Shown: positions 1,647 through 45,520 of the stretch, one piece after another
Numbering within the stretch: position 1 is the stretch's first letter
Layout of the letters: the number at the start of each line of letters is the position of its first letter
DNA from: Saprospiraceae bacterium
GTDB lineage: Bacteria; Bacteroidota; Bacteroidia; Chitinophagales; Saprospiraceae
Assembly: GCA_026986005.1 (NCBI GenBank)
Contig: JALSPK010000214.1
Span: 1-64,000, forward strand
Length of the DNA: 64,000 nucleotides
Direction of reading: 5' to 3'
Notes under the pieces: generated by a model
Seen by the model: the letters and a program-made list of their open reading frames with translations, nothing else
Databases searched by the model: none
Told to the model about the DNA's origin: nothing
Translations under genes and position numbers: made by a program

Positions 1647-1737
1647 ACAGACACTATTTAGTGTCTGTCCATAAAGTCATTAAAATTTAAAATAATCTTT
1701 TTGCGATATAATGTAACTACATAGACAGTCACTATTC
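1647..1737. repeat. Short element: perfect palindrome plus inverted termini
   Basis: ACAGACACTA at 1647-1656 and TAGTGTCTGT at 1659-1668 form a perfect 10-bp inverted repeat around TT. Reading right from 1658, TTAGTGTCTGTCCATAAAGTC is mirrored, with mismatches, by GACAGTCACTATT ending at 1737. The result is a roughly 80-bp unit with related inverted ends. Bases 1658-1688 match 57489-57519 at 30 of 31 positions. It has no coding capacity and resembles a MITE or its remnant. Confidence 0.55.
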
Positions 1738-31200: not shown

Positions 31201-31593
31201 TTTTCTTACAATTTTGAAGTCTGGTTTTTTTGCTGATTTTAAATCAATTGAAGAATCCAATGCACCGGCAAGATTCAACAACTCTTTAATGACATATAGT
31301 CCTAAATAAAATAGTGTCTCTTTGTCAAGAGTTCCTATTTTACCGGCATATTCTTTTCTATAAATATGAAAATCAAAAAGGAGATTTTTTTTAGGTTTAT
31401 ATTTTAGTCCAAGATAAGATATTCTGGCAAAAAGTGTATTAAAAACAAGCCCCTCTTCATTGGTAAGTTCGTGAACTAGTGATTCAAACACTTTGAATTG
31501 ATAATCCATATAGCCATCATCTATAATCTCAGCATGTTCAATTAAATGTTGAAGAGATTTATTAAAGACTTTATACTTTTTGATTTTGTTCAT
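28282..31593 (-). CDS. Dna2-like nuclease-helicase (PD-(D/E)XK plus SF1 helicase)
   Basis: The 1103-residue protein joins a RecB-like nuclease to a superfamily 1 (UPF1/Dna2-like) helicase. The nuclease motifs lie near residues 340-400: GIQGRLDIYY supplies the Asp, IIELKSGK is the E-x-K, and HYTQTLLYELM is the Q-x3-Y type helper. A beta-barrel (about 560-640, KGDIVLMYPSG) precedes the Walker A WGPPGTGKT (about 694). DEAS motif II, GDHMQLSAV (motif III), a Q-G-R-M, and the late VERYQGSARDIIIYS and NVVLTRAKEQ motifs complete the motor. The cysteine cluster that ligates 4Fe-4S in eukaryotic Dna2 is not visible. A role in DNA end processing or repair is inferred. It has no operon partner. Confidence 0.85.
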   Translation of the reverse strand: MNKIKKYKVFNKSLQHLIEHAEIIDDGYMDYQFKVFESLVHELTNEEGLVFNTLFARISYLGLKYKPKKNLLFDFHIYRKEYAGKIGTLDKETLFYLGLYVIKELLNLAGALDSSIDLKSAKKPDFKIVRKRLKGRKLHGRFALIGKREEKYILIDENNPSEELFMKADNLDVFRNSVEYLDSKVKLGELPITIGLVYIDIESDNVLLPQVVVIQPDYLVDVTAIAECFKPTGGDSRYFLINKFLKKPKNKYITIGNIVNFFLDELMSNTNLEFKEVLQSIFHLDPIIFAKMNDAEVKDLVLNLRNHFVNLKRVVNEDLQTLKIERKKCFIEPSFYSPIFGIQGRLDIYYQKENSSEAAIIELKSGKLFMANSYGLNTNHYTQTLLYELMIRSVFDFKIKPINYILYSVLDSNNIRFAPTITAQQKEAISIRNDIIATEERILKSKNDFTFYEKMNLEEFPGVSGFLKRDIENIQESFHKMDNIDKVYFSHFASFIAREHQLAKNGNHTRENSRGQSNLWLMNDKEKEEHFSILRNMEIYSNQSSEIFSTIDLKYSLDTNALANFRKGDIVLMYPSGSRENDRIKSQIFKGTVLRIGYKNITIRLRSKIYNQTLFAKFRYWNIEHDFLDSGFAKMYRSLNGFFVNDKDKISLILSKRPPRQSSRSNVVNFTDDLTETQKQMITNIVNVEEYYLLWGPPGTGKTSKIISQSVKNLIDLGEDIMLLAYTNRAVDELSEAVESIDDNMKDKYIRIGSRFSSDPKFLNNIFDNKLKTVSTRDKLKSMFETIPIFISTVSSLLSKEELFTIKKFDTLIVDEASQLLEPMLISILPYFKRFILVGDHMQLSAVVAQSEIFSQIENDDLKEIGMVDMRYSLFERLLTRAIGKNWDWAYGMLDEQGRMHKDIMKVANLFYGNKLKIINTISRLSSINKLSYISDFQKILAKNRLVFFPSDIDGELALSKANIHEAKLIVKVVHEIYELYKLNNKEMNDKSIGIVTTFRAQIAIIKNEFEKEKMDISKISIDTVERYQGSARDIIIYSTSVNSLIRFKQIIAENNDGLDRKLNVVLTRAKEQFILIGNEDILSSNNMYKKIIEKSYYKKLFV

Positions 31594-32576: not shown

Positions 32577-32742
32577 TTAGTACCTCTCTATAAAGTCGTC
32601 AAAATCAAAAAACAATCATTTTTCAATATTTTCTTTACTCAAATTTCTGATGCTAAGGCATCACTAATTTTCAGAAAAACAAAAATCTCATCAAAAATCT
32701 TTATTTTTTACAGTTAAACTATATTAAAATGTTGATTTTGTA
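32577..32742. repeat. Intergenic repeat with TTAGT terminus and GATGC-TAAG-GCATC hairpin
   Basis: The left end TTAGTACCTCTCTATAAAGTC matches 23 of 30 bases of the terminus at 1658 and 57489. The centre has a hairpin GATGC-TAAG-GCATC (32649-32662), and a wider pair TTTCTGA/TCAGAAA encloses it. TAAG loops with different stems occur at 43247 and 45406. The right boundary is unclear. Confidence 0.45.
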
Positions 32743-34062
32743 TTAATACGATTCTCTTACTCCTTCAAATATCCAATTTGCAACTGCCTGCCTGTTAGTA
32801 GGAATCAATATACGTTTGTGATCTTTAGGATTTTTGATATTTGCCAATTCTATGAATACAGCCGGGGGAAATGTATTTCTCAAAACATACCAGTTTCTTT
32901 GTCCTACAGATCCATTGTAGCCTCTACCCTTTTGAAATTTAGAATATTTCTTTTCAAAGGTGTTTTTAATATTAATAGCAATCTTCTTCCCTGTTTTGCT
33001 ACCTTTTGCATATGAAAAGAAAACATCTATTCTTTGATCTTTGTGCCTCGAATCGACATGAGTGACAATCAATAATTGTGACTTAATGTTCTTCTTTCTT
33101 TTATAAAAAGAATAAAGCTTATTAATATCATCAGAACGTTGTTTTAGCCTTTTTCTTTGACTTAATGGAATTCTTCTACCATCTATATTAACTTCATCTT
33201 TATCGCATTTCAAATACTTTTCGTCTCTTATACCATCATTTTTATCTTGCACTATAATATGAACGATGGCACCGTGTTGAATTAAATCTCTAGCCAACCT
33301 CAACGAAACATCATACGCATATTCATCTTCACACAAGACAGGATTACATTTAGTGCATTGTGCACCAGGATCCGGACCACCATGTCCACTAAGTATATAG
33401 AACACTCTGTTTTCCAATGCGTGATCTTCAATTTGTATAGACGAATATCTCTTACCAAATAGAGGCTCGTATCGAAAAAGCTTACTATTTTTAGCTATTG
33501 TCTTTTTATTAATCGCTCTTTTTTTTACAAAAAGCGTTTTCTTTTTTGTCGAATTTAACACTTTGGTATACTTAGGCAATCTGTCTACTTCTTTAACTTT
33601 TTCTTTCTTTTCTTTTACATGTACTGTTTTGATTTCATCCATTTTACAATAGATTTCAGCATATGGAACCCACAATATTTTACTTTCAATATAATTCTTT
33701 CGCCTGAGTCTTTTTTTCAAAATATCATTATTGTATTTTTGAATTCGCAAAGCTTTTTTCAGATTGTTCTCTCCTATTGTACTTCTTATACTTTTTCCAT
33801 CATAAAAATAAATCAGGATAGGCATTTTATATAAATTGCCTATCTTCAATTTAGAATCTCTTTTAAGATTATTTATACCCAGAAAATGCGCTAGATTACA
33901 TTGGTTATCAATCAACTTGTACCTCCTTAATAAGGAAAATATTCCATCTCCCTTTGCAGCCTTCACTTTATAATAGTCTTGAGAAAAGGCAATATTTGTA
34001 GTGAAAAACAACACCAAAATTGATATTGACACTATACGTAATATATATTTTAATGAATTCAT
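32743..34062 (-). CDS. N-acetylmuramoyl-L-alanine amidase (Amidase_3) with degenerate LysM-like N-terminus
   Basis: The 439-residue exported enzyme (signal ending at NIAFSQ) splits the amide between muramic acid and the stem peptide. Residues about 30-150 resemble a worn LysM region (YYKVKAAKGDGIFSLLRRY). The Amidase_3 domain starts near 225. Its zinc ligands are probably His in SGHGGPDPGA, Glu in CEDEYAYD, and His in VTHVDSR. The catalytic Glu is in FIELANIKN. A CxxC-x5-C cluster (CTKCNPVLC) sits between the first His and the Glu. A promoter box ends 4 nt before the ATG, predicting a leaderless mRNA. Confidence 0.88.
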   Translation of the reverse strand: MNSLKYILRIVSISILVLFFTTNIAFSQDYYKVKAAKGDGIFSLLRRYKLIDNQCNLAHFLGINNLKRDSKLKIGNLYKMPILIYFYDGKSIRSTIGENNLKKALRIQKYNNDILKKRLRRKNYIESKILWVPYAEIYCKMDEIKTVHVKEKKEKVKEVDRLPKYTKVLNSTKKKTLFVKKRAINKKTIAKNSKLFRYEPLFGKRYSSIQIEDHALENRVFYILSGHGGPDPGAQCTKCNPVLCEDEYAYDVSLRLARDLIQHGAIVHIIVQDKNDGIRDEKYLKCDKDEVNIDGRRIPLSQRKRLKQRSDDINKLYSFYKRKKNIKSQLLIVTHVDSRHKDQRIDVFFSYAKGSKTGKKIAINIKNTFEKKYSKFQKGRGYNGSVGQRNWYVLRNTFPPAVFIELANIKNPKDHKRILIPTNRQAVANWIFEGVRESY

Positions 34063-34066
34063 GATG

Positions 34067-34097
34067 CAAATATATTAACAAAATACGTAATATCAAA
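34067..34097 (-). promoter_or_regulatory. Full promoter placing the amidase ATG at about +1
   Basis: The minus strand reads TTTG, a 19-nt spacer, TATATTTG, then CATC and ATG. The -7 box ends 4 nt before the start codon, so the transcript is predicted to have no leader. Confidence 0.6.
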
Positions 34098-34224
34098 TTT
34101 TTCTATAAAAAATTATCTTTTTATTTATTTTTATATTTTATGCCTTTACTGGACAACAGCCATAATGAAACGGAATGCTTTTTAAATTACGAGAAAAATT
34201 AATACAATACTATAAGGGGACAAA

Positions 34225-34788
34225 TCAGTTAGAGTAAAAATTTTCAGGCATTTGAGCAATAACCTCATAATTTTCGCCCATTTCCTCAAGCACTTTCTTC
34301 CAAGTTCTGTTATCGCTGTTTTTAAATATGAAATTTATATCAGCCGGAGCAATTATCCATGATCCATGGGTTATTTCATCCTCAAGTTGTCCTGAAGACC
34401 ATCCTGTATATCCAACATAGAATTTCAAATCATGTGGAGTAATCAATTTCTCATCAATCATCAATTTTAGTTTATCAAAATCACCCCCCCAAAACACACC
34501 ATCTTTGATTTCTATACTATCTTCTAATAATTCGCCTTTTTTATGAATATATTGAATTGTATTTGTTGCAACAGGTCCTCCAAAATAAGCAGAAGCATTA
34601 AAGGAAGGAAAATCTACCATTAGTTCCTCAGCTTTATAATCCATTGGACGATTTATAATAAATCCTAGTGCACCTTGCTCATTGTATTCTGCTAGATAGA
34701 TTACTGTTCTTCTAAAATTGCCATCCAACATAAAAGGCTGGGAAACTAAAAATTTACCCTTTTCCAATTTATACTCCTTTTTCTTCAT
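34225..34788 (-). CDS. YqgE/AlgH family protein (UPF0301)
   Basis: The 187-residue protein matches the family along its length. It begins GKFLVSQPFMLDGNFRRTVIYL, then has QGALGFIINRPMDY, YFGGPVATNTIQYIH, the late FYVGYTGWSSGQLEDEITHGSWI core, and ends NYEVIAQMPENFYSN. The function of the family is not settled, and the AlgH name comes from an alginate-regulation phenotype in Pseudomonas. There are no catalytic residues to point to. It is probably soluble and cytoplasmic. It sits alone, with about 160-200 bp of AT-rich DNA on each side, and shows no clear promoter consensus. Confidence 0.93.
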   Translation of the reverse strand: MKKKEYKLEKGKFLVSQPFMLDGNFRRTVIYLAEYNEQGALGFIINRPMDYKAEELMVDFPSFNASAYFGGPVATNTIQYIHKKGELLEDSIEIKDGVFWGGDFDKLKLMIDEKLITPHDLKFYVGYTGWSSGQLEDEITHGSWIIAPADINFIFKNSDNRTWKKVLEEMGENYEVIAQMPENFYSN

Positions 34789-34985
34789 ACTGCATTTCTT
34801 TTATTTTAATAACGCTACAAACTCTGAAATTATTTTTGAGTTTTAATGAATAGTGAATACACAAAACAAGAGTTTATTTAAATTTATGATAATTTCTGTT
34901 AAAAACAATCAATGTTATTAATATCTAAGTATTAATCATTGAAATGCTGATTAACAGTCAAACGCAATAAGAGAAGTATCATTTT

Positions 34986-35864
34986 TCAAATTGCATCTGT
35001 GGGAATACTTCGGTCAACTCTCCTAACAAAATTAACAAGAGTCTTCCCATTACCACCTACTTCAATAAACTGTTTAACGCCATCTTCTATCATATTTTGC
35101 ATGGTCTGAGTCCAAAGCACAGGAGAAGTTAGTTGCTTTATTAAATTATCTTTTATTTTTTCAGGATCCATTTCACTTTTTCCTGTCACATTTTGATAAA
35201 TGGGCAGTTTTGGAGTGGCGAAATCTGCTGTACTAATTGCTTTGGCCAATTCTTCACGAGCGGGCTCCATAAACGGACTATGAAAAGCTCCTCCCACTTG
35301 CAAAGTTATAGCTCTTCTCGCTCCATTTTCTTTTAGTTTTTCAATAGCTTTTTCTATTCCTTTCAAAGAACCTGAAATAACCAACTGCCCGGGACAATTA
35401 TAATTTGCAGGTATAACTATTTCGTCAATATTTTCACAAATCTCTTTTACAACATTATCTTCCAAACCCAATATGGCGGCCATAGTACTTGGATGTGCTT
35501 CACAAGCTTTTTGCATAGCATTTGCTCTTACTTGGACTAAGTTTAAGCACTCTTCAAAAGCAAGAGTTTCATTAGCCGCAAGAGCTGTAAATTCTCCTAA
35601 AGAATGGCCTGCTACAACATCCGGAGAGTATTTTTTCCCATTTACCACAAAGCTTATATAGGAATGTAAGAAAACAGCCGGTTGAGTTACTCTTGTTTGT
35701 TTTAAGTCTTCCAATGTACCTTCAAACATTACTTCGGTAATTTTGAATCCGAGAATCTCATTTGCTCTGTCAAATATATTTTTTGCTAAAGAACTATTTT
35801 CATAAAAATCCTTCCCCATACCCACAAACTGGGATGCTTGCCCTGGAAATACGTACGCTATCAT
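34986..35864 (-). CDS. fabD: Malonyl-CoA:ACP transacylase
   Basis: FabD moves malonyl from CoA to acyl carrier protein for fatty-acid synthesis. The opening PGQASQFVGMGKDFYEN, the nucleophile elbow GHSLGEF (Ser about residue 87) and the catalytic His in GAFHSPFM (about 195) are all intact. Length is 292, slightly below the usual 300-310, but no motif is missing. It starts 17 bp after folE and both read left, so they form a two-gene operon from the promoter at 36561. Other fab genes are not nearby. Confidence 0.95.
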   Translation of the reverse strand: MIAYVFPGQASQFVGMGKDFYENSSLAKNIFDRANEILGFKITEVMFEGTLEDLKQTRVTQPAVFLHSYISFVVNGKKYSPDVVAGHSLGEFTALAANETLAFEECLNLVQVRANAMQKACEAHPSTMAAILGLEDNVVKEICENIDEIVIPANYNCPGQLVISGSLKGIEKAIEKLKENGARRAITLQVGGAFHSPFMEPAREELAKAISTADFATPKLPIYQNVTGKSEMDPEKIKDNLIKQLTSPVLWTQTMQNMIEDGVKQFIEVGGNGKTLVNFVRRVDRSIPTDAI

Positions 35865-35881
35865 TTTTATATTTTTTATTA

Positions 35882-36466
35882 TTAATGTAAATTATTGCTT
35901 ATCAGTCTTAAAAACTCGCTTCTAGTTTCAAGTTTATTAAATGCACCTCTAAATGCCGAAGTAGTCGTAACTGAATTCTGTTTTTGCACTCCCCTCATCA
36001 TCATACACATATGTTGTGCTTCTATTACTACAGCAACGCCTAAAGGGTTTAGGTTTTTCTCCAATGATTCCAATATTTGGTTTGTCAATCTTTCTTGTAC
36101 TTGAAGTCTACGAGCAAAAACATCTACAACTCTTGCGATTTTGCTTAATCCTACTATAGATTTATTTGGTATATATGCTACATGGGCTTTACCGAAAATA
36201 GGTAAAAGATGATGTTCGCAGAGTGAATATAATTCAATATCTTTGACAATTACCATTTCACTATATTCCTCGTCAAACATAGCCTTTTGAATAATCTCAT
36301 CAGGGTTTTGGTCATATCCTTTAAGCAAAAACTGCATTGATTTCGCAGCTCGATGAGGAGTTTTGATTAATCCATTTCGAGAGGTATCCTCACCTACAAG
36401 AGTAAGAATATCATTAAAATTAAGTTTTAACTTATCGTACACTATCTCCGAGTTCAATTTTTCCAT
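35882..36466 (-). CDS. folE: GTP cyclohydrolase I
   Basis: FolE converts GTP to dihydroneopterin triphosphate, the first step of folate/pterin synthesis. The zinc ligands and active site are plain: Cys and His in [22 protein letters not shown] and the later Cys in [36 protein letters not shown] is the family signature. At 194 residues it has a normal length. It leads the folE-fabD pair, downstream of a full TTTG/TATTTTTG promoter with a leader of about 88 nt. Confidence 0.97.
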
Positions 36467-36899
36467 TTTTTTTAATTTATTAACACATTGTTTGTAAATA
36501 GATTAACTAAAAACACATAAAAAGGTTTAGTTTATATGACACAATCTGCATAATTGGACGCAAAAATACATATTTAATCCATATAATCAAAGAGAGTAAC
36601 TACTCTAATGGAATCAATTTTATATCTTATATATTATTATGCAAATACTAGGTTTTTGCTCTAAGATTATATTAAGCAATAAATAATAAATTTTCCTTAA
36701 TTTGAACCTTTTTATTAAAACTAAAGTTTTTATTGTAAGAGATATTCCGTAAATGAAAATATCTAATTACTATTTTAGATTGATTTAGATTTTGAATAAA
36801 TAAAAAAATTAGTGTTTTAATTACCATTTATTCTCAAAAAATATTTATTTTTATGATAAATTTTTAGTTTTATTTTATAACTTATAAATTCATGTCGTC
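36467..36899. other. Divergent AT-rich intergenic region upstream of folE and the 85-codon gene
   Basis: The gap is 433 bp with very high A+T and many T/A runs. Only the folE promoter (36561-36591) is identifiable. I found no RNA gene, hairpin or consensus promoter for the rightward gene. Confidence 0.5.
36561..36591 (-). promoter_or_regulatory. Full Bacteroidota promoter for folE-fabD
   Basis: The minus strand reads TTTG, a 19-nt spacer, then TATTTTTG. It lies 94 nt before the folE ATG. Confidence 0.65.
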
Positions 36900-37157
36900 A
36901 TGTATATAACATTCAACGAATTAAGAAAAATTAAACATAGCTTGCCAACAGGAAGTGTAAAAAGAATCGCAGAACAACTTGGAACAGATGAACAAGCTGT
37001 AAGAAATTATTTTGGAGCAAAAAAATATGATAATAATGGGGAAATTATTGGAAAACATATACAACCCGGTCCTGATGGTGGTATAGTTCATTTAGAGGAT
37101 ACTGTAATATTAGATGCAGCTAAAAAGATCTTAGATGAAACCGCTAGTAAAGTCTAA
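36900..37157 (+). CDS. Small helix-turn-helix-like protein of unknown role
   Basis: The 85-residue protein reads MYITFNELRKIKHSLPTGSV, then KRIAEQLGTDEQAVRNYFGA. That second stretch resembles the first helices of a DNA-binding HTH, with an A-x2-L-G-x5-V spacing. A short acidic and glycine segment with GPDGGIVHLEDTVILDAAKK follows. There is no signal peptide. I do not recognise a named family, although small proteins of this look are common in Bacteroidota. A clean terminator at 37163-37194 and the good reading frame support a real, single-gene transcript. DNA binding is inferred, not shown. Confidence 0.7.
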   Translation: MYITFNELRKIKHSLPTGSVKRIAEQLGTDEQAVRNYFGAKKYDNNGEIIGKHIQPGPDGGIVHLEDTVILDAAKKILDETASKV

Positions 37158-37162
37158 AACAT

Positions 37163-37194
37163 AAAAAAAGGTCGTCAATTGACGACCTTTTTTT
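37163..37194. terminator. Bidirectional intrinsic terminator
   Basis: AAAGGTCGTC and GACGACCTTT pair over AATT, flanked by A's on the left and T's on the right. It serves the 85-codon gene and the convergent gene whose stop codon (37193-37195) it touches. Confidence 0.85.
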
Positions 37195-38467
37195 ATGTTT
37201 TATGTTTTTTCTTCCTAGCAGCTGGAAACAATATATTATTCAGTATCAACCTATATCCGGGAGAATTGGGATGCAGACTTAGATCAGTAGGTGGATCCCC
37301 TATGAAATGCCTATAGTCTTCGGGGTCGTGTCCACCATAAAATGTCCAAAACCCTTTTCCATAATTGCCGTGAATATACCTAGCTTCATTCTCAACCTTT
37401 AAATCGCCCATAATCAAAACATCCGACTTAATCTGATTTTTTTTAAATGCTGTTGTTTGCCCCATAAATCCCTTTATTACTCTAGTATGGTTTTGAGTAA
37501 GCATTGTGGGTACAGGATCCCATTTAGCCGAAAATTCGAACAAAGTAAAATAATCTTCTTTTGGTCTTATCTTCCTTTTCCTATTATCAATGGATGAAAA
37601 TTCATATTCATAGGGATTTGTTACCAATTGAAAATTTTCAAAAGCAAAAGTATTATTAAAATTTAGTTTGGATTGTGCATTTGGATCCATTGGATCATAA
37701 TCATACATTTTATCACATATATCTGTCTCTTCTGCAGATAAAGCAATATCATAACTATCCGTTGCAGAACACATCGCAAAAAGAAAACCTCCGGCTCCAA
37801 CATACTCTTTTATTTTTTTTGCAACAGCAAGTTTCAATTTGGAGACTTTCTTAAATCCGAGACTCTTAGCTAATGCTTCTTGCCTTCTCTGATTTTCTTT
37901 ATACCATTTGTAGTCTTTATAGCTTTTATAAAATTTTCCATATTGTCCGGTAAAATCTTCATGATGTAGATGTAGCCAATCGTATTCAGCTAATTTATCT
38001 TCCAGTACCTGTCGATCATATATTTTATCAAAAGGAATTTCGGCATAGGTCAAAACCATTGTCACGGCATCATCCCAAGGTTGAATTTTTTCTCCTCGAG
38101 TATTGTATTCAGGAGTATAAACCGCTATTTTCGGTACTTTTTCCAACTTCATCACTTCTTGATTAACCTCAGGAGAAGCTATTTCATTTCTGATGCGTGC
38201 AAATTCTCCGTTGGTTATAACCTTATAGCTAACACCTCTGATTTTACATTTCCTTTCTATAGGTTCAGCATATTTGAATGCGAAACTACCTCCTCTATAG
38301 TTTAATAGCCAATATGCTTCAGCATCTTGCTCCAATACCCAATACGCAATACCATAAGCTTTAAGATGATTTTTTTGACTTTCAGCATCCATCGGAATCA
38401 GAATATAACTCGCAAAAGACTTCCCTACGAAAAACACTAGCAATATGGAAAAAATCAATTTATTCAT
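37193..38467 (-). CDS. Secreted Bacteroidota protein of the family often labelled 'asparagine synthetase B'
   Basis: The 424-residue protein has a signal peptide (MNKLIFSILLVFFVGKSFAS) and begins SYILIPMDAESQKNHLKAYG. Relatives are frequently named asparagine synthetase B, but neither a glutaminase N-terminal Cys nor the SGGxDS pyrophosphatase loop of AsnB is present. The middle (VGAGGFLFAMCSATDSYDIAL) has the look of a class I amidotransferase-like nucleophile elbow, with Cys as candidate. The tail has GKGFWTFYGGHDPEDYRHF. The role is unknown and the location is probably periplasmic. It ends inside the shared terminator at 37163-37194. Confidence 0.75.
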   Translation of the reverse strand: MNKLIFSILLVFFVGKSFASYILIPMDAESQKNHLKAYGIAYWVLEQDAEAYWLLNYRGGSFAFKYAEPIERKCKIRGVSYKVITNGEFARIRNEIASPEVNQEVMKLEKVPKIAVYTPEYNTRGEKIQPWDDAVTMVLTYAEIPFDKIYDRQVLEDKLAEYDWLHLHHEDFTGQYGKFYKSYKDYKWYKENQRRQEALAKSLGFKKVSKLKLAVAKKIKEYVGAGGFLFAMCSATDSYDIALSAEETDICDKMYDYDPMDPNAQSKLNFNNTFAFENFQLVTNPYEYEFSSIDNRKRKIRPKEDYFTLFEFSAKWDPVPTMLTQNHTRVIKGFMGQTTAFKKNQIKSDVLIMGDLKVENEARYIHGNYGKGFWTFYGGHDPEDYRHFIGDPPTDLSLHPNSPGYRLILNNILFPAARKKKHKT

Positions 38468-38580
38468 AATATTAATTTGTTAAATATAGAAACTTTTTAA
38501 ACGATATAACAGGTTTCAAATAAAACTAACTTCATTACCTAACGACTAACAGGTAAACTTTGGTATAAAGAGTATAAATA

Positions 38581-38616
38581 AAAAAAGTGTAGGATATAGA
38601 CACCCTACACTTTTTT
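38581..38616. terminator. Intrinsic terminator after the OmpA/TSP3 gene
   Basis: AAAAAAGTGTAGG (38581-38593) and CCTACACTTTTTT (38604-38616) form a 13-bp stem with a 10-nt loop. On the minus strand it follows the OmpA stop by about 25 nt and ends in T's. Confidence 0.8.
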
Positions 38617-38640
38617 ATCTATTTATAATAATTGTAATAA

Positions 38641-40251
38641 CTAGAAAGTAGATTTCAGCTCTACCCTTCTATTCAATTTTCGTCCTGCAGATGTCTTATT
38701 GTCAGCAACTGGCATAGTCTCTCCATATCCGGCACTTGACAATCTGTGTTGAGCAATTCCTTTTTTAACCAAGTAATTCATTACTGAATCAGCTCTTTTC
38801 TGAGATAATGTTAAATTTTTACTATCATCACCTCTATCATCTGTGTGACCTTCAATAATCATATTCATTTCAGGATATTCTTTCAAGATTCCAACTAATT
38901 CGTTCAATTTTCTTTTTGAACTAGATTTAAGTACAGCACTTCCTGTATTAAAATACACAGCTTTAGCAATACTAATAATTTTTTCTTGAACCTCTTTCTT
39001 TACCGCTGGGCAACCTTTATTTGCAGCAATACCCGCAATTTTAGGGCATTTATCATCCAAATCTCTAATGCCATCTCCGTCTGTATCAGGACATCCGTTG
39101 ATTATACCTTTTACCTTAGGGCAATTATCATCTATATCAACAACTCCATCTCCATCTGTATCAGGACAGCCTTTAATCGTGCCTGCCACTTCAGGACATC
39201 TATCTTCTGAGTCTACAACTCCATCGCCATCTGCATCAGGTGGAGGACAACCTGCAAATTCTTTAATACCTTTAACTTTAGGACACTTGTCATTTTTATC
39301 AATAATACCATCACCATCTGTATCAGGACATCCATTAATTGTTCCTGCTACATTTGGACAATTGTCATCTTTATCAGCAACCCCATCACCATCTGTATCA
39401 GGGCAGCCTTTCAATGCGATAGAACCTGCAACTAAAGGACATAAATCCTCTGCGTCTGTAATACCATCTCCATCTGTATCAGGGCAGCCATTAAATGCAG
39501 CTATACCGGGTATATCCGGACATGCATCTTTATCATCGGAAATTCCATCATGATCTCTATCTTTAATGCCTATTTTCATACCTACATTTATTCCATAAAA
39601 GAAGTAGACATCATTTTTATCAGGATTAGCTGATTCACTAACTCCATCGATATAATCAGTCATCGGAGCAACAGATCTAAACTCAAAATCAACATGAAAT
39701 TTCTCTGAGACATTATATTTTACTCCAAATCCATATGGCAATTGCATATTGATATTTTTAGTATTATCCTCATCGCTTTTATTCTTTACGGGTCTAGGAT
39801 TACTTGTCCAGTCTACAACAGGTTTTGTATAACTTATACCTCCTCCCAATAACAAATAAGGAATAAATGACTTTTTAAACGAGCCATCTTCATAAGTTTT
39901 AGGTTTTAGCACATTCCATTGAGCCATTACCCCAAATTCATGTAATGGTGAAGTAAATTCATATCCCCTTATAATATGGCTCGTTAGCTTATCCAACTTT
40001 TTATCCACTCCTTTCAATTTTGTTCCCATATAGCCAAGCCTAATCGCAAACTTCTGATTAAAATTATACGTGTAATTTAATCCCCAGCCCAATCCGGTAT
40101 TATCAAATAAGCCTTGCCCATCTTTAGCAAAGCTACTTACATCCGTACTATTGTCTCCTGCTCCTAAAAATAGTCCAATCTCGCTTTTTGACTGTCCCAT
40201 CAACAAGATAGGAAGTATAAAAATAGCTAAAAATAAAAATCGTCTTTTCAT
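38641..40251 (-). CDS. OmpA family outer-membrane protein with seven thrombospondin type 3 repeats
   Basis: The 536-residue protein starts with a signal peptide (MKRRFLFLAIFILPILLMGQ) and an N-terminal beta-barrel (about 20-235). Seven Ca-binding TSP3 repeats of the D-x-D-G-D-G-x-x-D-x-x-D-x-C-P type cover about residues 235-405. The C-terminal OmpA peptidoglycan-binding domain (YFNTGSAVL, IIEGHTDDRGDD, NRRVEL) follows. This layout is widespread in Bacteroidota and should link the outer membrane to the cell wall. The encoding DNA has near-repeats at 39030-39545. A -7 box is at 40293 and a terminator at 38581. Confidence 0.92.
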   Translation of the reverse strand: MKRRFLFLAIFILPILLMGQSKSEIGLFLGAGDNSTDVSSFAKDGQGLFDNTGLGWGLNYTYNFNQKFAIRLGYMGTKLKGVDKKLDKLTSHIIRGYEFTSPLHEFGVMAQWNVLKPKTYEDGSFKKSFIPYLLLGGGISYTKPVVDWTSNPRPVKNKSDEDNTKNINMQLPYGFGVKYNVSEKFHVDFEFRSVAPMTDYIDGVSESANPDKNDVYFFYGINVGMKIGIKDRDHDGISDDKDACPDIPGIAAFNGCPDTDGDGITDAEDLCPLVAGSIALKGCPDTDGDGVADKDDNCPNVAGTINGCPDTDGDGIIDKNDKCPKVKGIKEFAGCPPPDADGDGVVDSEDRCPEVAGTIKGCPDTDGDGVVDIDDNCPKVKGIINGCPDTDGDGIRDLDDKCPKIAGIAANKGCPAVKKEVQEKIISIAKAVYFNTGSAVLKSSSKRKLNELVGILKEYPEMNMIIEGHTDDRGDDSKNLTLSQKRADSVMNYLVKKGIAQHRLSSAGYGETMPVADNKTSAGRKLNRRVELKSTF

Positions 40252-40292
40252 ATCTGTTTTATTTAATAGTTTATAAATTAATTATTAATACA

Positions 40293-40300
40293 CAAATGTA
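40293..40300 (-). promoter_or_regulatory. -7 box (TACATTTG) for the OmpA/TSP3 gene
   Basis: The minus strand matches TAnnTTTG, 41 nt before the ATG. No -33 TTG is seen. Confidence 0.45.
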
Positions 40301-40356
40301 CTATATTAATCTTTTATATTTATAAAAATTACAATAAAATTATTTTTTTTAACACT

Positions 40357-41691
40357 TTAATTACCAAATCCTTCAAATCCTTTCATATCGGGGATACCTT
40401 TCATCTTACTCATTTTGTACATCATCTTCTTCATTTGCTCAAATTGTTTGATAAACATATTCACTTCGTGAATCGATCTACCGCTACCTTTTGCAATTCT
40501 TCTTTTCCTACTCATATTCATCAGTTCAGGTTTAGCTTTTTCTTCTTGGGTCATCGAATATATTATTGACTCAACTTTGTCAAAAGCATTATCATCAATA
40601 TCAATATTTTTCACCATTTTACCCATCCCGGGAATCATTTTCATTAACCCCTTTAGATCACCCATTTTTTTTATCTGCTTGATTTGGCTTAAAAAATCGT
40701 TATAATCAAACTTGTTTTTTTTGATTTTTCGCTCTAATTTCTTTGCTTCTTTTTCATCAAACTGAGCCTGAGCTTTTTCAACAAATGTGACAATATCACC
40801 CATACCAAGGATTCTTTGAGCCATCCTATCAGGGTGAAACATTTCTAAGTCTTGTAGTTTCTCTCCGTTACTTACAAATTTTATAGGTTTACCGACAGTA
40901 TACTTTACTGATAATGCAGCACCACCTCTAGTATCTCCATCCAATTTGGTCAATACGACACCATCAAAATCTAATCGGTCATTAAATGTTTTTGCCGTAT
41001 TTATTGCGTCTTGACCTGTCATAGAGTCTACAACAAAAAGAGTTTCATTTGGCTTAATTGCAGATTTTATGTCTTCAATTTCCTGCATCATAGCATCATC
41101 TATCGCAAGTCTACCTGCTGTATCCACTATCACAACTCCAAAACTATTCTCTTTGGCATATTTAACGGCATTTTGCGCTATCTGTACCGGGTTTTTGTTT
41201 TCTAATTCTTTGTAAATCTCCGCATTTGCTTGTTCTGCGACAACAGTTAATTGGTCTATCGCAGCAGGGCGATAAACGTCACCTGCGACTACTAATACCT
41301 TCTTTTGTTTTTTCTCTTTTAAGTATTTTGCCAATTTACCTGTGAATGTCGTCTTACCAGAGCCTTGCAACCCTGATATTAATATTATACTGGGTTTACC
41401 GCTTAGATCAAGTCCAACAGCTTGTCCTCCCATCAGTTCAACCATTTTATCTTGAACGATTTTCACCATCAATTCACCGGGTTTCACCGCAGAAAGGATA
41501 TTCTTTCCTCCCAAGGCTTCTTTTTTCACTTCATCGGTAAACTCTTTCGCAATTTTGTAATTAACATCAGCTGCAACAAGAGCACGTCGTATTTCTTTAA
41601 CAGATTTAGCAACATTAAGCTCTGTTAATTTGCCTTCACCTTTTATATTTTTAAACGCGAGTTCTAATCTTCCTGTTAAATCGTCAAACAT
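40357..41691 (-). CDS. ffh: Signal recognition particle protein Ffh
   Basis: Ffh binds 4.5S RNA and signal peptides and targets membrane proteins to FtsY. The N domain is followed by the GTPase with GLQGSGKTTFTGKLA, DTAGRLAIDD, and TKLDGDTRGGAAL. The Met-rich M domain (GMGDIVTFVEKAQ ... GSGRSIHEVNMFIKQFEQMKKMMYKM) is complete. At 444 residues the length is standard. A -7 box lies 22 nt before the ATG. No SRP RNA gene is visible nearby. Confidence 0.97.
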   Translation of the reverse strand: MFDDLTGRLELAFKNIKGEGKLTELNVAKSVKEIRRALVAADVNYKIAKEFTDEVKKEALGGKNILSAVKPGELMVKIVQDKMVELMGGQAVGLDLSGKPSIILISGLQGSGKTTFTGKLAKYLKEKKQKKVLVVAGDVYRPAAIDQLTVVAEQANAEIYKELENKNPVQIAQNAVKYAKENSFGVVIVDTAGRLAIDDAMMQEIEDIKSAIKPNETLFVVDSMTGQDAINTAKTFNDRLDFDGVVLTKLDGDTRGGAALSVKYTVGKPIKFVSNGEKLQDLEMFHPDRMAQRILGMGDIVTFVEKAQAQFDEKEAKKLERKIKKNKFDYNDFLSQIKQIKKMGDLKGLMKMIPGMGKMVKNIDIDDNAFDKVESIIYSMTQEEKAKPELMNMSRKRRIAKGSGRSIHEVNMFIKQFEQMKKMMYKMSKMKGIPDMKGFEGFGN

Positions 41692-41712
41692 ATTTTATTT
41701 TTTTTGTGGACG

Positions 41713-41720
41713 CAAATATA
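41713..41720 (-). promoter_or_regulatory. ffh: -7 box (TATATTTG) for ffh
   Basis: The minus strand matches TAnnTTTG. The spacing to the nearest upstream TTTG is only 14 nt. The leader would be about 17 nt. Confidence 0.45.
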
Positions 41721-41873
41721 GTAAAATATAAAATCAAATAATAATAATATCCAATTACTAATAAATCGTCCTTTCTTTTTATCATTAAAAAATAATAATC
41801 CTTATTTTTAAAACGAATATCCAATCTATATATATCGGCCTATTTTTTAATATATTATCATAAACAATAATAG

Positions 41874-43154
41874 TTAAGGCTTTTCAAGCAATTCAAACAT
41901 TTTCTTTTTATAAGCCTCAACTCCCGGTTGATCAAAAGGATTAACTCCAAGTATATAACCACTTACAGCACATGCTTTTTCGAAAAAATACAACAATGCA
42001 CCTAAATTAAATTCGTCTAGACTATTCATCGAAATTTCAAGATTAGGCACGCCTCCCTCAATATGGGCAAAAAGCGTTCCTTCTTTTGCTTTTTGATTCA
42101 CAAAATCTAAACTTTTTCCTACAAGGTAGTTCAAATTATCAAGATCATCATCAACTTTAGGAATTTCTATTATACTACCGGGAGAAAGTATCGATAAAAC
42201 AGTCTCAAATAAATTCCTTTCCCCCTCTTGAATATATTGCCCTAAAGAATGTAGATCTGTAGTATTAGTCACCCCTGCAGGAAATATCCCTTTGCCGTTT
42301 TTCCCCTCACTTTCTCCATATAATTGTTTCCACCATTCAACTACATAAAATAGTTTAGGACTATATGTAGTCAGCAATTCTATTTTTTTATTATTGTTGT
42401 AGAGCAAATTACGTATCACAGCATACTTCAACACGATATTATCATCAAATGAGTTATATGATTGCGTCATTTCATCCATCTCTTTAGCTCCAAGAATTAA
42501 TTGTTCGATATTGTAACCAGCCAACGCAATTGGCACTAGACCTACAGGTGAAAGAACGGAAAAACGGCCTCCAATATTATCGGCGATAATGAATGTTTGG
42601 TATCCTTCTTTATCCGCTAATAGCTTTAAAGCCCCCTTTTTCTTATCTGTTATGGCTATAATCCTTTTCCTAGCTTCCAAAACACCGTATTTTTTTTCAA
42701 TTTGATTCTTCAATAATCTAAAGGCAATTGCGGGTTCTGTAGTAGTACCTGATTTTGAGATTACAACAATACCGAAGTTTTTACTTTTTATATACTTAAA
42801 TAATTCACTATGATACCTTTCATCCAAATTATTTCCTGCATAGATAATCTCTACATTTGGATTTTGGAATTGATTGTTCAACGCAAACAAAACAGCCCTT
42901 GCTCCGAGATATGATCCTCCAATGCCAACAACTACGATTGTATCTACTTTTGCACGTAGATCTGATATAGATGATTCTATAATTTTATATTCGTCAGAAT
43001 ATGGCAAGTCAAGCCAACCTAAAAAATCATTTCCCTTTCCTGTTTTATCCTCAAGTTTTTTTAAAGCAGCTTGCGCTTCAATTTTCATTTTAATATACTC
43101 TTCTTCTTTAAATAACGACGATGCATTTTGGATATCTATGTATATAGTCTTCAT
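41874..43154 (-). CDS. pgi: Glucose-6-phosphate isomerase
   Basis: Pgi interconverts glucose-6-phosphate and fructose-6-phosphate. GIGGSYLGARAVLFAL and ISKSGTTTEPAIAFRLL hold the sugar-phosphate binding site. The catalytic Glu and His regions GVTNTTDLHSLGQYIQEG and FDQPGVEAYKKKMF are intact. At 426 residues it is the short bacterial form (as in Firmicutes), not the 550-residue form. It stands alone, convergent with nothing close, and a 166-bp repeat element lies directly upstream of its start. Together with fbp at 47070 it serves glycolysis and gluconeogenesis. Confidence 0.96.
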   Translation of the reverse strand: MKTIYIDIQNASSLFKEEEYIKMKIEAQAALKKLEDKTGKGNDFLGWLDLPYSDEYKIIESSISDLRAKVDTIVVVGIGGSYLGARAVLFALNNQFQNPNVEIIYAGNNLDERYHSELFKYIKSKNFGIVVISKSGTTTEPAIAFRLLKNQIEKKYGVLEARKRIIAITDKKKGALKLLADKEGYQTFIIADNIGGRFSVLSPVGLVPIALAGYNIEQLILGAKEMDEMTQSYNSFDDNIVLKYAVIRNLLYNNNKKIELLTTYSPKLFYVVEWWKQLYGESEGKNGKGIFPAGVTNTTDLHSLGQYIQEGERNLFETVLSILSPGSIIEIPKVDDDLDNLNYLVGKSLDFVNQKAKEGTLFAHIEGGVPNLEISMNSLDEFNLGALLYFFEKACAVSGYILGVNPFDQPGVEAYKKKMFELLEKP

Positions 43155-43172
43155 ATTTCAAAGTTTTCTGCC

Positions 43173-43338
43173 TTATACCAAACCGCCATCATAAAACTGC
43201 TTATTAAAAGTTTAGTTTTTACTTTTACTGCTTTATAAAATATTTCCATAGCTAAGGCTATGCGAAGATTTTTTTCATTGAATCAGCAAAAATCAATTCT
43301 TTTTCTATTTCACCATCTTGATAACGGTTTGGTATTAA
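43173..43338. repeat. 166-bp non-coding element with inverted ends and CATAGC-TAAG-GCTATG hairpin
   Basis: Left end ATACCAAACCG (43175-43185) is repeated inverted at 43325-43335, followed on both sides by two mismatches and ATCA. A 6-bp stem with the loop TAAG sits at 43247-43262. No ORF is visible, so it looks like a MITE. It occupies most of the pgi/ompA divergent gap. The remaining 43339-43496 is AT-rich with no clear signal. Confidence 0.55.
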
Positions 43339-43496
43339 TTTAAATAATAACTTTTAAAAAATTATCACAAAAATAATTATTAATACAAATTTTTATGCCA
43401 TTTTTGTGTTAAATGTTATTAGTTGAAGAACATAAAAGAGTTTAAGTAGTTGTATCCAATGAGTTTTGCTGATTTTTAGAATATAAAATAAATAAA

Positions 43497-45041
43497 ATGA
43501 ATAAATTAATAGCTTTATCACTCCTGTTTTTTTTTATGATAACTTCTTCTATGGCACAAGAAGGAATTACAGTGAAAGGGTATGTTTCTGCTGAAGAGAA
43601 TCAAGGTTTCATTGCTGATGCAACCGTCACTTTATCTTTAAAAAATTCAAAATTAATTTTAGGCGAAACAAAAACTAATAGTTATGGTGAGTTCTCTTTT
43701 ACAATTGAACCTGATAGGGTTTATTCAATTACTATAAAAAAGAGCATCTATAAAGATGTTGTAAAAGAAATAACCGGTAATTCATCAAAAGATGGAAAAA
43801 ATATTTTTCTAAAGCTTACAATGGTGAGAAAGCCAGGATACACATTTGAAATTAGTTTAACGGAAATACGAGAATCTCCATATGCTCCTGTAGATGGAAT
43901 CACCGGTGCATTAATTGAGGTATACAATAATACTACCGGAGAAGAAACCGCCAGTTTCACCAATGATAGGCCCAATTTCAATATTGAATTAAACAAGGGG
44001 AATCATTATACAATTCTTATAAGAAAAGACGGATATCTCGCAAAAGAACTTGAAGCTTATCTGAATATAAATGGTTGCATAATTTGTTTTCATGGAGTTA
44101 GTAAAATGCAACCAGGTATAAAAACCAGATTGTCAAAAAATAATACAGTAGGTAAATATCTAGCCAATATTGAAATGGATAAAGTATATGAAGGGAAAAA
44201 AATAAAAATAAACAATATTTATTACCAGTTAAACAAAGCTAATATTACAGAAACTGCTGCTAAAGAATTAGATAATATTGCCAGAACACTAAAGATAAAC
44301 CCCAAATTAGTAATAGAACTAGGCTCACATACAGATAGTAGGGGGTCTGATAGTTACAATTTGAAATTATCAACAGCTAGAGCAAAAGCAGCAGTACAGT
44401 ACTTAACCCATATAAGAAAAATAAATAAAAACAGAATAACATATAAAGGTTATGGAGAAACAGAACTAACTAATAATTGTAAAAATGGTGTACCATGTAG
44501 TGAAGAACTTCATGCGGCAAACAGAAGAACAGAAATGAAAATTCTTAATATCATGCAAGATGACACCGGAGAGTTGATTCCATTGAAAGTCATAAAGGAC
44601 AATAAAAGAATGGAGGAAAGATTGCAAAATATATTAGATTACGGTTCTAAAACCATAGAAATAAAAGATGGGAAGATACCTGATGAAATCTTAAGAGACC
44701 TTGAAAAAAACAAGAAAAAAGATACTTCAAATAAAAGAATCACAAATAAGCCTTCAGTAATATCAAAAGATATTGATAAATCTGTGCCAAAAATAGACAA
44801 TGAATTTACCGGTTATAAAATAGTATTACTTGATGCTTTTGCTCCATTACCCAAAGGTCATATCTTGATTAAAACCGTAAAAAACCTTGAGTTTTATACA
44901 AACCATGAAACCGGTAAAGTGTTGTATTTAATAGGATCATACGCAACATATGACAAAGCTGTTTATGACTTGGAGGACAACTGGAAAAAACGTTTCAAAA
45001 AAGCATATATTGTAAAATTTAAGAATGGCAACAAAATTTGA
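43497..45041 (+). CDS. OmpA family protein with carboxypeptidase-like N-domain
   Basis: The 514-residue protein has a signal peptide (LIALSLLFFFMITSSMAQ). Residues about 22-110 form a carboxypeptidase regulatory-like beta-sandwich (TVKGYVSAEENQGFIADATV ... TKTNSYGEFSFTIEP). A second similar domain follows. The OmpA domain (NNIYYQLNKANITETAAKELD, LGSHTDSRGSD, NRRTEMKI) covers about 235-355. A lysine-rich linker leads to a C-terminal 75-residue segment with a SPOR-like pattern (VLYLIGSYATYDKAVYDL). It probably ties the outer membrane to peptidoglycan. The PspC-like gene follows after 39 bp but has its own promoter. Confidence 0.85.
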   Translation: MNKLIALSLLFFFMITSSMAQEGITVKGYVSAEENQGFIADATVTLSLKNSKLILGETKTNSYGEFSFTIEPDRVYSITIKKSIYKDVVKEITGNSSKDGKNIFLKLTMVRKPGYTFEISLTEIRESPYAPVDGITGALIEVYNNTTGEETASFTNDRPNFNIELNKGNHYTILIRKDGYLAKELEAYLNINGCIICFHGVSKMQPGIKTRLSKNNTVGKYLANIEMDKVYEGKKIKINNIYYQLNKANITETAAKELDNIARTLKINPKLVIELGSHTDSRGSDSYNLKLSTARAKAAVQYLTHIRKINKNRITYKGYGETELTNNCKNGVPCSEELHAANRRTEMKILNIMQDDTGELIPLKVIKDNKRMEERLQNILDYGSKTIEIKDGKIPDEILRDLEKNKKKDTSNKRITNKPSVISKDIDKSVPKIDNEFTGYKIVLLDAFAPLPKGHILIKTVKNLEFYTNHETGKVLYLIGSYATYDKAVYDLEDNWKKRFKKAYIVKFKNGNKI

Positions 45042-45052
45042 CCTCAAATAAC

Positions 45053-45083
45053 TTGGACATTCATATTATTTTTTGTACTTTTG
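45053..45083 (+). promoter_or_regulatory. Promoter for the PspC-like gene
   Basis: TTG at 45053-45055, a 20-nt spacer and TACTTTTG at 45076-45083 match the Bacteroidota consensus. The box covers the alternative TTG start at 45081, which therefore cannot be the real start. Confidence 0.65.
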
Positions 45084-45104
45084 GGTAATATTAGAATTCA
45101 TAGC

Positions 45105-45323
45105 ATGCATAATTGGATAAAAAATAGGGCAGAAAGATCTACGTTTGGTGTATTTGCTTATCTAGGAGAGAAGCTTGGTATTCAGAGCAGCAAGATGAGG
45201 TTGTATTTTATTTACACATCATTTTTAACTTTGGGCTCGCCCATTATTTTCTATTTTATAGCCTTATTTTGGTTAAATCTAAAAAAGTATTTGAGGAAAA
45301 CTTATGTTCTTATCTTTGACTAA
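45105..45323 (+). CDS. PspC domain small membrane protein
   Basis: The start is placed at ATG 45105, giving 72 residues, because the upstream in-frame TTG at 45081 lies in the promoter box. The protein reads FGVFAYLGEKLGIQSSKMRL, a PspC-like amphipathic start, followed by one hydrophobic segment of about 25 residues (FLTLGSPIIFYFIALFWLN) and a basic tail. PspC proteins are phage-shock or envelope-stress inner-membrane components. Small single-domain forms are common in Bacteroidota and their role is not defined. It is probably transcribed on its own from the promoter at 45053. Confidence 0.78.
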   Translation: MHNWIKNRAERSTFGVFAYLGEKLGIQSSKMRLYFIYTSFLTLGSPIIFYFIALFWLNLKKYLRKTYVLIFD

Positions 45324-45330
45324 ACAAAAC

Positions 45331-45520
45331 TAGTGTCGTGTCAAGCGTATTTTGATGCACCAATTCTTGTTCATTCTGCGCATAACTTCGTTAAAAATTT
45401 TAACTGTAGCTAAGGCTTCCGAAGTTAATTCGGGACAAGTTATGCTGAAAATTTTACACCTTGTTCTACACAAATATTCCTGCAACTTATGCGATATTTT
45501 ACACTTGGCAATACACTTGA
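45331..45520. repeat. 190-bp non-coding element with GTAGC-TAAG-GCTTC core
   Basis: TAGTGTCGTGTCAAG (45331-45345) begins the element. TCAAGCGTATT at 45341-45351 is mirrored with one mismatch by AATACACTTGA at 45510-45520. Inside are repeated GCATAACTT/AAGTTATGC arms and a TAAG-loop core at 45406-45419. It abuts the stop of the photolyase gene (45525). No protein is encoded. Confidence 0.5.

Follow-up and report, generated by a model that had tools for sequence, protein, structure and literature searches.

It is customary to define miniature inverted-repeat transposable elements (MITEs) by their ends and to regard the middle as leftover sequence; ERIC is known as a 127-bp imperfect palindrome. 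The elements considered here reside in a stretch of 64,000 nucleotides of contig JALSPK010000214.1 from the draft genome of a Saprospiraceae bacterium (the source genome; the whole stretch is referred to as the window) and comprise three families of palindromes, termed F1, F2 and F3, each of which carries a hairpin with a TAAG loop at its centre. As compared to the bacterial MITEs that served as comparison set, i.e., the IS982-derived MITE of Cardinium cOegib (PMC9769881) and NEMIS, ERIC and Nezha (PMC3733652), they are likewise small, intergenic, non-coding, multi-copy, bounded by terminal inverted repeats (TIRs) and likely to be moved in trans by a transposase recognising the ends; unlike what the available parts of these two papers describe, palindromes with different ends have a common folded core here, across genera and families. 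The likeness to ERIC concerns the form, both being long imperfect palindromes in intergenic gaps, though of different hosts. With the GTAG repetitive extragenic palindromes (REPs) and the RAYT- and TIRYT-type repeats, as portrayed in the available sections of PMC3733652, they have in common that they are extragenic palindromes with a conserved hairpin, and GTAG occurs in many of the stems; unlike there, GTAG is located inside the stem and not at the hairpin foot, is not conserved (CATAGC and GATGC in the source genome), and the elements possess TIRs and, in the case of F1 and F2, target duplications. Two other genomes (G297 and G039) contain IS5-family elements (NCBIfam NF033580) whose ends are similar, whereas the palindromes themselves are without a transposase gene. 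Rfam gave no match in the window at the gathering threshold; among nine loci, the only match at this threshold was a tRNA located outside the element, and fourteen loci gave none at E <= 1. No description of a folded core recurring across differently ended elements was found in searches covering open-licence PMC papers. What is known is the MITE as a kind of element, into which the ends, the size and the F1 and F2 duplications fit, and what appears to be new is the core recurring across different ends. The recurring part is the middle, not the ends, and it comes with compensated stems and a conserved internal loop. If this holds true, the inside of MITE-like elements can be under selection, the core offers a handle by which many repeats lacking annotation can be found and classed in genomes of Bacteroidota, Saprospiraceae-like ones and others, and the requirements of MITEs beyond their ends become directly testable.

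Three hairpins as midpoints of three palindrome families

The sequence-only reading had placed intergenic hairpins at 32649, 43247 and 45406, and re-reading returned identical sequences at these positions, with the stem mismatch of the third being T.T. A chance origin of the hairpins was ruled out by the enrichment of GCTAAGGC, which occurs four times in the window, where 100 dinucleotide shuffles give 0.62 on average (one of them reaching four); the draft genome of 3.81 Mb has 113 occurrences as compared to 25 for the backwards pattern. The fourth window occurrence, at 29906, lies within a long open reading frame (ORF, 28282-31593) and is without a matching stem; a TAAG loop is present in two of the seven perfect window hairpins (4-nt loop, stem of at least 5, at least three G-C pairs). 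Alignment of genomic copies together with their surroundings identified each hairpin as the midpoint of a different multi-copy repeat with sharp borders. The full-length forms of F1 to F3 are approximately 159-187 bp long, with palindromic arms and three different terminal repeats, and the loci collected (matches of at least 120 bp of the consensus, hence not a whole-genome count) comprise 49 for F1, 20 for F2 and 4 for F3. The consensus and ends of F1 were derived from 48 copies; its ends are TAGTGTCTGTC, with the usual 164-bp form ending in TAGTGTCTGTCYATAAAG and CTTTATAGACAGACACTA, and among the 54 stretches of 40-400 bp bounded by TIRs in the loci collected at that stage, 36 have this length of 164 bp. 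Sites of its terminal repeat (TIR1) with up to two mismatches number 347 in the genome, as compared to 5 for the reversed control, and the exact F1 core was also found in 12 contigs of one Saprospiraceae metagenome-assembled genome (JALSPW). F2 is about 159 bp long with the ends TACCAAACCG and CGGTTTGGTA, while F3 is about 163-187 bp long with the ends TAGTGTCGTGTCAAG and is present in few copies (seven matches, four of them long), its terminal inverted repeats at the borders having been seen in four copies only. In the window copy of F1 the left terminal repeat is degenerate (TAGTACCTCTCTATAAAG) and the right one unrecognisable, and the window copy of F3 is damaged by internal extra sequence, so that 108 nt align to the 84 positions of the model described below.

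Insertion is indicated by a 2-bp target duplication in 27 of 38 F1 copies (7.5 expected from re-paired flanks) and by a TTA/TAA duplication in 10 of 16 F2 copies (4.75 expected likewise). No ORF of at least 80 amino acids lies inside the window copies of F1 to F3, and only two of 73 elements, both F2, fall into crudely called ORFs. F1 is separated from its neighbouring genes by medians of 66 and 71 bp, in 21 tandem, 12 convergent and 8 divergent gaps, with 8 further F1 copies at sequence ends. Within tandem gaps the TNNG strand (N, any nucleotide) is antisense to transcription in 18 of 25 F1 and F2 copies (two-sided binomial 0.04), which gives a weak hint only of a strand bias. Several characteristics of MITEs were found in these elements, namely TIRs at fixed borders in many copies of F1 and F2, target duplications of both, the absence of a transposase gene and a size within 70-300 bp, and the TIRs, duplications and intergenic placement identify them as MITE-like. 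The proposal of a non-coding structural repeat was borne out as regards a conserved folded element and has to be revised as regards the hairpins, which do not stand alone and are the centres of these palindromes.

At window positions 1648-1734 a 76-bp F1-type element adjoins an orphan F1 end (ACAGACACTA TT TAGTGTCTGT), as though two elements once neighboured, and direct F1 tandems with a spacing of 166 bp and a common 2-bp spacer were found at two further loci (L002 1425-1754, L042 1921-2250), which core matches spaced by 163 bp in another genome (G001, contigs C115 and C175) resemble. For F2, the central loop is reversed relative to the arms at L046 near 2008, and also at L111 (CCTTAG for CTAAGG), as if the palindrome tip had been inverted.

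A folded core inside unlike palindromes

In F2 and F3 the hairpin was found to form the apex of a more extended folded core. Two covariance models of this core were built, such a model having been proposed in the sequence-only reading. The first one (R1) derives from a set of 19 hand-picked centres of nine genomes (A1), which were gathered by the pattern CGTAGCNNNNGCTACG and consist of 18 centres from eight relatives plus one F3 copy, neither F1 nor F2 being included; near copies, palindromes with other loops (L144, L147, L154, L159), L166 and non-palindromic places were omitted. The second one (R2) was likewise trained without F1 and F2. From 35 representatives, 31 with a 4-nt loop entered the positional profile and 27 the alignment A2, the omitted ones being L234, L235, L238 and L245 (other loop lengths), F2 (held out), L227 (a near copy of L226) and the disturbed L242 and L246. 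Counted outwards from the loop in the 31 representatives, distances 1-6 are paired in 94-100% and show several pair types at three of these six positions. Distance 7 is a mismatch position with C facing C in many cases (paired in 16%; C in 77% on the left and 48% on the right). An A/T helix follows at distances 13-17 (61-97% paired, A-T and T-A both being frequent), and distances 20-25 keep their sequence (CTTCGTT on the left, GCCTYGT on the right) and are mostly unpaired, with a complementarity of 0-16% at four positions and 45-48% at two; a T/A helix lies farther out than this internal loop. The TNNG share of 29 among the 31 loops is inflated, as orientation scoring prefers T..G loops and R1 was trained on such loops.

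Across the 27 sequences from 23 genomes, the 18 proposed pairs hold in 86.8% of cells as compared to 64.8% upon shuffling and 39.7-53.5% for slid versions, over which the scheme has an advantage, having been derived from the tested sequences. Changes on both sides occur in 15 of the 18 pairs (11.2 upon shuffling), and the covariation score amounts to 0.507, as compared to 0.143 for shuffled sequences and 0.265 for the best slid partner, with the three inner pairs being invariant and hence uninformative on covariation. The postulated stem covariation is seen between families, not among the copies of the source genome that were examined: of 96 F2 stem cells in 16 copies, 82 are unchanged, 5 are G-T, 9 are broken and none is compensated. 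A search for further genomic copies had been suggested, with the lack of compensatory stem changes among them named as refutation; further copies were indeed found, and by this test F2 fails, since compensated stems are absent among the 16 copies examined.

Recovery of a family by a model built without it was achieved for F2. R2 recovered 11 of the 12 copies supplied (16 had been collected) at E <= 0.004, the twelfth at 0.44, it matched the window copy of F2 at E 2.2e-8, and R1 recovered 9 of the 16 genome copies at E <= 0.01 in 149 kb. For F3 the match of the window copy is not independent, because another F3 copy of the same genome was part of the R2 training set, and F1 was not recovered in this way with default filters. 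F1 has the apex, the C-C mismatch and the palindrome form in common with the core, and with the filters switched off it scores 14.4 bits (window copy) and 10.8 bits (L008) against the core model, so that F1 as a carrier of the shared core, and with it the GATGC hairpin as a member of a common element, is not convincingly recovered.

Among 100 relatives, the pattern CGTAGCNNNNGCTACG was found in 28 (8 matches in G033, 25 in G039, 7 in G045, 10 in G053, 3 in G018 and 2 in G054), with many of the single matches being ordinary sequence; a reversed-pattern control was apparently driven by base composition and was discarded. The palindromes of relatives have unlike ends, arms of mostly about 80 bp with about 70% complementarity, and a common centre. 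Their loops are TAAG, TTAG, TTTG, TATG, TACG and once TGCG, in few palindromes AGTA, GGTG, CGGG or TATA, and the draw of genomes across the phylum added GATG, TATC, TCT and GAT. Since the loop varies around a common centre, TAAG is not the constant feature, and the constancy which had been ascribed to it is a local one. R1 matches were obtained in 39 of 100 relatives (E <= 0.01), with at least 43 in the richest genome, and R2 matches (E <= 0.001) in 9 of 395 genomes phylum-wide, i.e., the source genome, two of the same family and six from one other family of the same class, perhaps Flavobacteriaceae; the copy numbers per genome are lower bounds, as at most 43 candidates per genome were scored for R1 and at most 11 for R2, under strict filters. 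One single-contig genome (G199) has core-bearing palindromes with four different end sequences; at least three of these are unrelated, and two (AATACCA-) are related to each other. Between F2 and F3 of the source genome the core identity is 0.60 (shuffled maximum 0.52), a figure which, like all core identities given here, is inflated by the way in which the sequences were gathered, and that of the outer arms is 0.35 (null mean 0.38). In 7 of 10 same-genome family pairs the core identity exceeds the shuffled maximum (the exceptions being G199 0-2, G199 1-2 and G033 a/b), whereas the outer arms do not exceed it in 8 of 10 pairs (lying exactly at it for G045 a/b) and are above it for G199 1-2 and G039 a/b, which have related ends. 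Taken together, a folded core with compensated stem changes recurs inside otherwise unlike mobile palindromes, at least two of the three local families included. A plasmid search with one G297 element and a viral-contig search with one core pattern gave no matches. Small self-complementary inserts (CCTGCCGGCAGG-like and CCCGATAGCTATCGGG-like) were observed inside palindromes of other genomes (L204, L206, L169, L242).

Proposed mobilisation and role of the fold

On these grounds the three hairpins are probably the midpoints of three non-autonomous, TIR-bounded, MITE-like palindrome families, whereby the core of F2 and F3 recurs elsewhere and its fold would serve the element. The palindromes would be moved in trans by DDE transposases recognising their ends, and the centre of F2 and F3, in which a 6-bp stem closed by a TNNG-type loop is joined by a mismatch (often C-C), an A/T helix and an internal loop rich in pyrimidines, would act for the element itself, on active copies. 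The latter is suggested by the fold being kept between families while F2 copies decay without compensation within the genome; with 9 of 96 stem cells broken and none compensated, the host seems not to maintain the apical stem at each insertion, and selection on active elements rather than on each insertion appears to be the simplest reading. In the favoured version, a folded RNA or single-stranded DNA may make insertions tolerable or aid transposition. Fold z-scores on the two strands are -7.7/-7.0 for L180, -4.5/-4.8 for an F3 copy, -1.6/-2.8 for the window copy of F2 and -3.4/-1.5 for that of F1, and as both strands can fold, RNA and single-stranded DNA are both possible. A more far-reaching idea, which we hold to be somewhat less likely than its opposite, is that the folded strand of about 85 nt is a transferable cassette which several unrelated mobile palindromes of the DDE type have taken up in at least two Bacteroidota groups and which serves the elements, not the host. 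Here, ends and transposase partners would change while the cassette stays, its role lying in transposition (as single-stranded DNA) or, as an RNA structure, in hiding or insulating insertions.

As to the transposase, IS5-family elements with palindrome-like ends were identified at 2 of 30 transposase loci examined (L288:1131-1994, L295:1089-2031). In G297 an 864-bp element encodes an IS5-family transposase (NF033580, E 4e-40), and its ends AGAGCCTGTTTAA are like those of the local palindrome (13-21 bp identical); the one of G039 is about 943 bp long (NF033580, E 1e-38) and has ends that resemble GAAGCTGTTTAAAAATG with mismatches, the right end coinciding with the end of the sequence. As the ends are similar, a DDE transposase recognising them can fairly be inferred to move the palindromes of the G297 and G039 types. 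For F1 to F3, the sole PF01609 match of the source genome (L140) was rejected as candidate, as it has none of their ends and its best NCBIfam match, IS701, is below the cut-off. Among the ORFs between matching ends in the loci collected, the 8 of 13 that were scanned yielded no candidate either, giving sigma-70, MscS, peptidase M1, DUF4271, two weak matches below the cut-off and two without match.

Several findings weigh against the proposed explanation. An autonomous partner of F1, F2 and F3 was found neither by PF01609 in the source genome nor among the ORFs scanned between matching ends, and the core-bearing genomes G293, G321, G462 and G087 are without a PF01609 match. Target duplications were absent in all three F3 copies examined. 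With default filters the F1 element was unmatched at all loci searched (0/10 with R1, 0/11 with R2), window copy included. Within F2, distances 7-18, the region of the A/T helix, diverge by 3.9% and the internal-loop region by 13.7%, where a simple reading predicts otherwise. Besides the advantage of the pairing scheme mentioned above, apex conservation is inflated, because sequences were gathered by a core pattern and afterwards by a model made from it. Finally, by a loose pattern two of the three window hairpins are weakly terminator-like.

This last point leads to a role at the level of the host, by which the palindromes would be bidirectional terminators or mRNA-stabilising structures maintained at each site. 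The proximity of the elements to genes and their near absence from ORFs fit this idea, as do the orientation of the TNNG strand opposite to transcription and the low divergence of distances 7-18 among F2 copies. The loose terminator pattern that marks two of the three hairpins yields 9 sites in the 14-kb region, with 5.8 (sd 1.9) being expected. Against it stand that the F2 apex is barely better kept than the arms (16-nt apex 7.0%, arms 8.1% and whole element 7.8% divergent from the consensus in 16 copies, three rows having been dropped as reverse-orientation duplicates) with no compensated pairs, that F1 gaps are not limited to gene ends and that, as read from the sequence, no T-run directly follows the stem. 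A host role is regarded as improbable. Somewhat less so, though still unlikely, is passive inheritance, according to which the palindromes stem from inverted duplication, their centre was spread by recombination or nested insertion, and pairing is a by-product of an idle fold. Complementarity does span the whole arms and not the core alone, F2 copies decay uncompensated, and a hybrid at L038 near 2001 joins an F2 left half to half an F1-like element with another centre (GCCATAGC). Against this reading, the internal loop at 20-25 is conserved yet mostly non-complementary, which is not what palindromy or homogenisation alone would be expected to leave. Also against it, for most family pairs of one genome the outer arms do not rise above the shuffled level, while the core does so in 7 of 10.

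Very improbable is that the elements are palindromes of the REP/RAYT or TIRYT type which Y1 (IS200/IS605-like) transposases mobilise. TIR repeat families linked to Y1 transposase genes provide a precedent, as the available part of PMC3733652 describes. GTAGC does occur in the core of many families, and the source genome has two PF01797 genes, one of them inside a REP-like array. The F1 and F2 target duplications argue otherwise, as such duplications are not expected from Y1 transposition. Neither Y1 gene is flanked by F1 to F3 as a unit: F1 and F3 were not found at either locus, F2 is represented near one of them by no more than a remnant of 76 bp, and the array at the other is built of a different repeat. 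Furthermore, 3 of 8 genomes searched, the core-rich G053 included, are without a PF01797 match. The array-bearing locus (L214, G000:C140:1-2563) has its Y1 gene at 719-1063 between tandem arrays at 68-679 and 1313-1620 with a period of about 50-56 bp; the array unit is GTCCC-ATTA-GGGAC...GGTAG, with a single inverted copy at 1228-1258. It looks like a RAYT with GTAG-tagged REPs, for which the available part of PMC3733652 does not list this phylum.

Features of the window

The copies of the three families and their parts are compiled below, together with a shorter F1-type element.

Table 1. Positions of palindromic elements and their parts in the window
Feature	Position	Strand	Basis or remark
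F1 palindromic element, truncated copy, between two minus-strand ORFs	32578..32708	+	BLAST to F1 consensus
F1 central hairpin GATGC-TAAG-GCATC	32649..32662	+	six pairs including flanking T-A
F2 palindromic element, complete, TACCAAACCG...CGGTTTGGTA, between divergent ORFs	43176..43334	+	sequence, BLAST
Left TTA target duplication of F2	43173..43175	.	read from sequence
Right TTA target duplication of F2	43335..43337	.	read from sequence
F2 folded core	43213..43295	+	R2 match, E 2.2e-8, 46.3 bits in 142 kb
F2 central hairpin CATAGC-TAAG-GCTATG	43247..43262	+	sequence
F3 palindromic element, right end diverged, extra stretch in right half, between convergent ORFs	45331..45517	+	
F3 folded core, stretched by internal insertion	45371..45478	+	R2 match, E 6.7e-10, not independent
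F3 central hairpin GTAGC-TAAG-GCTTC, one mismatch	45406..45419	+	CGTAGC-TAAG-GCTACG in L124
Shorter F1-type element, 76 bp, both terminal repeats present	1659..1734	+	sequence

No tRNA or tmRNA was found in the window. Among the terminator-like sites of the scanned region, the strongest is located at 37155-37202, where a perfect 22-bp stem with the loop AATT is followed by a T-rich tail.

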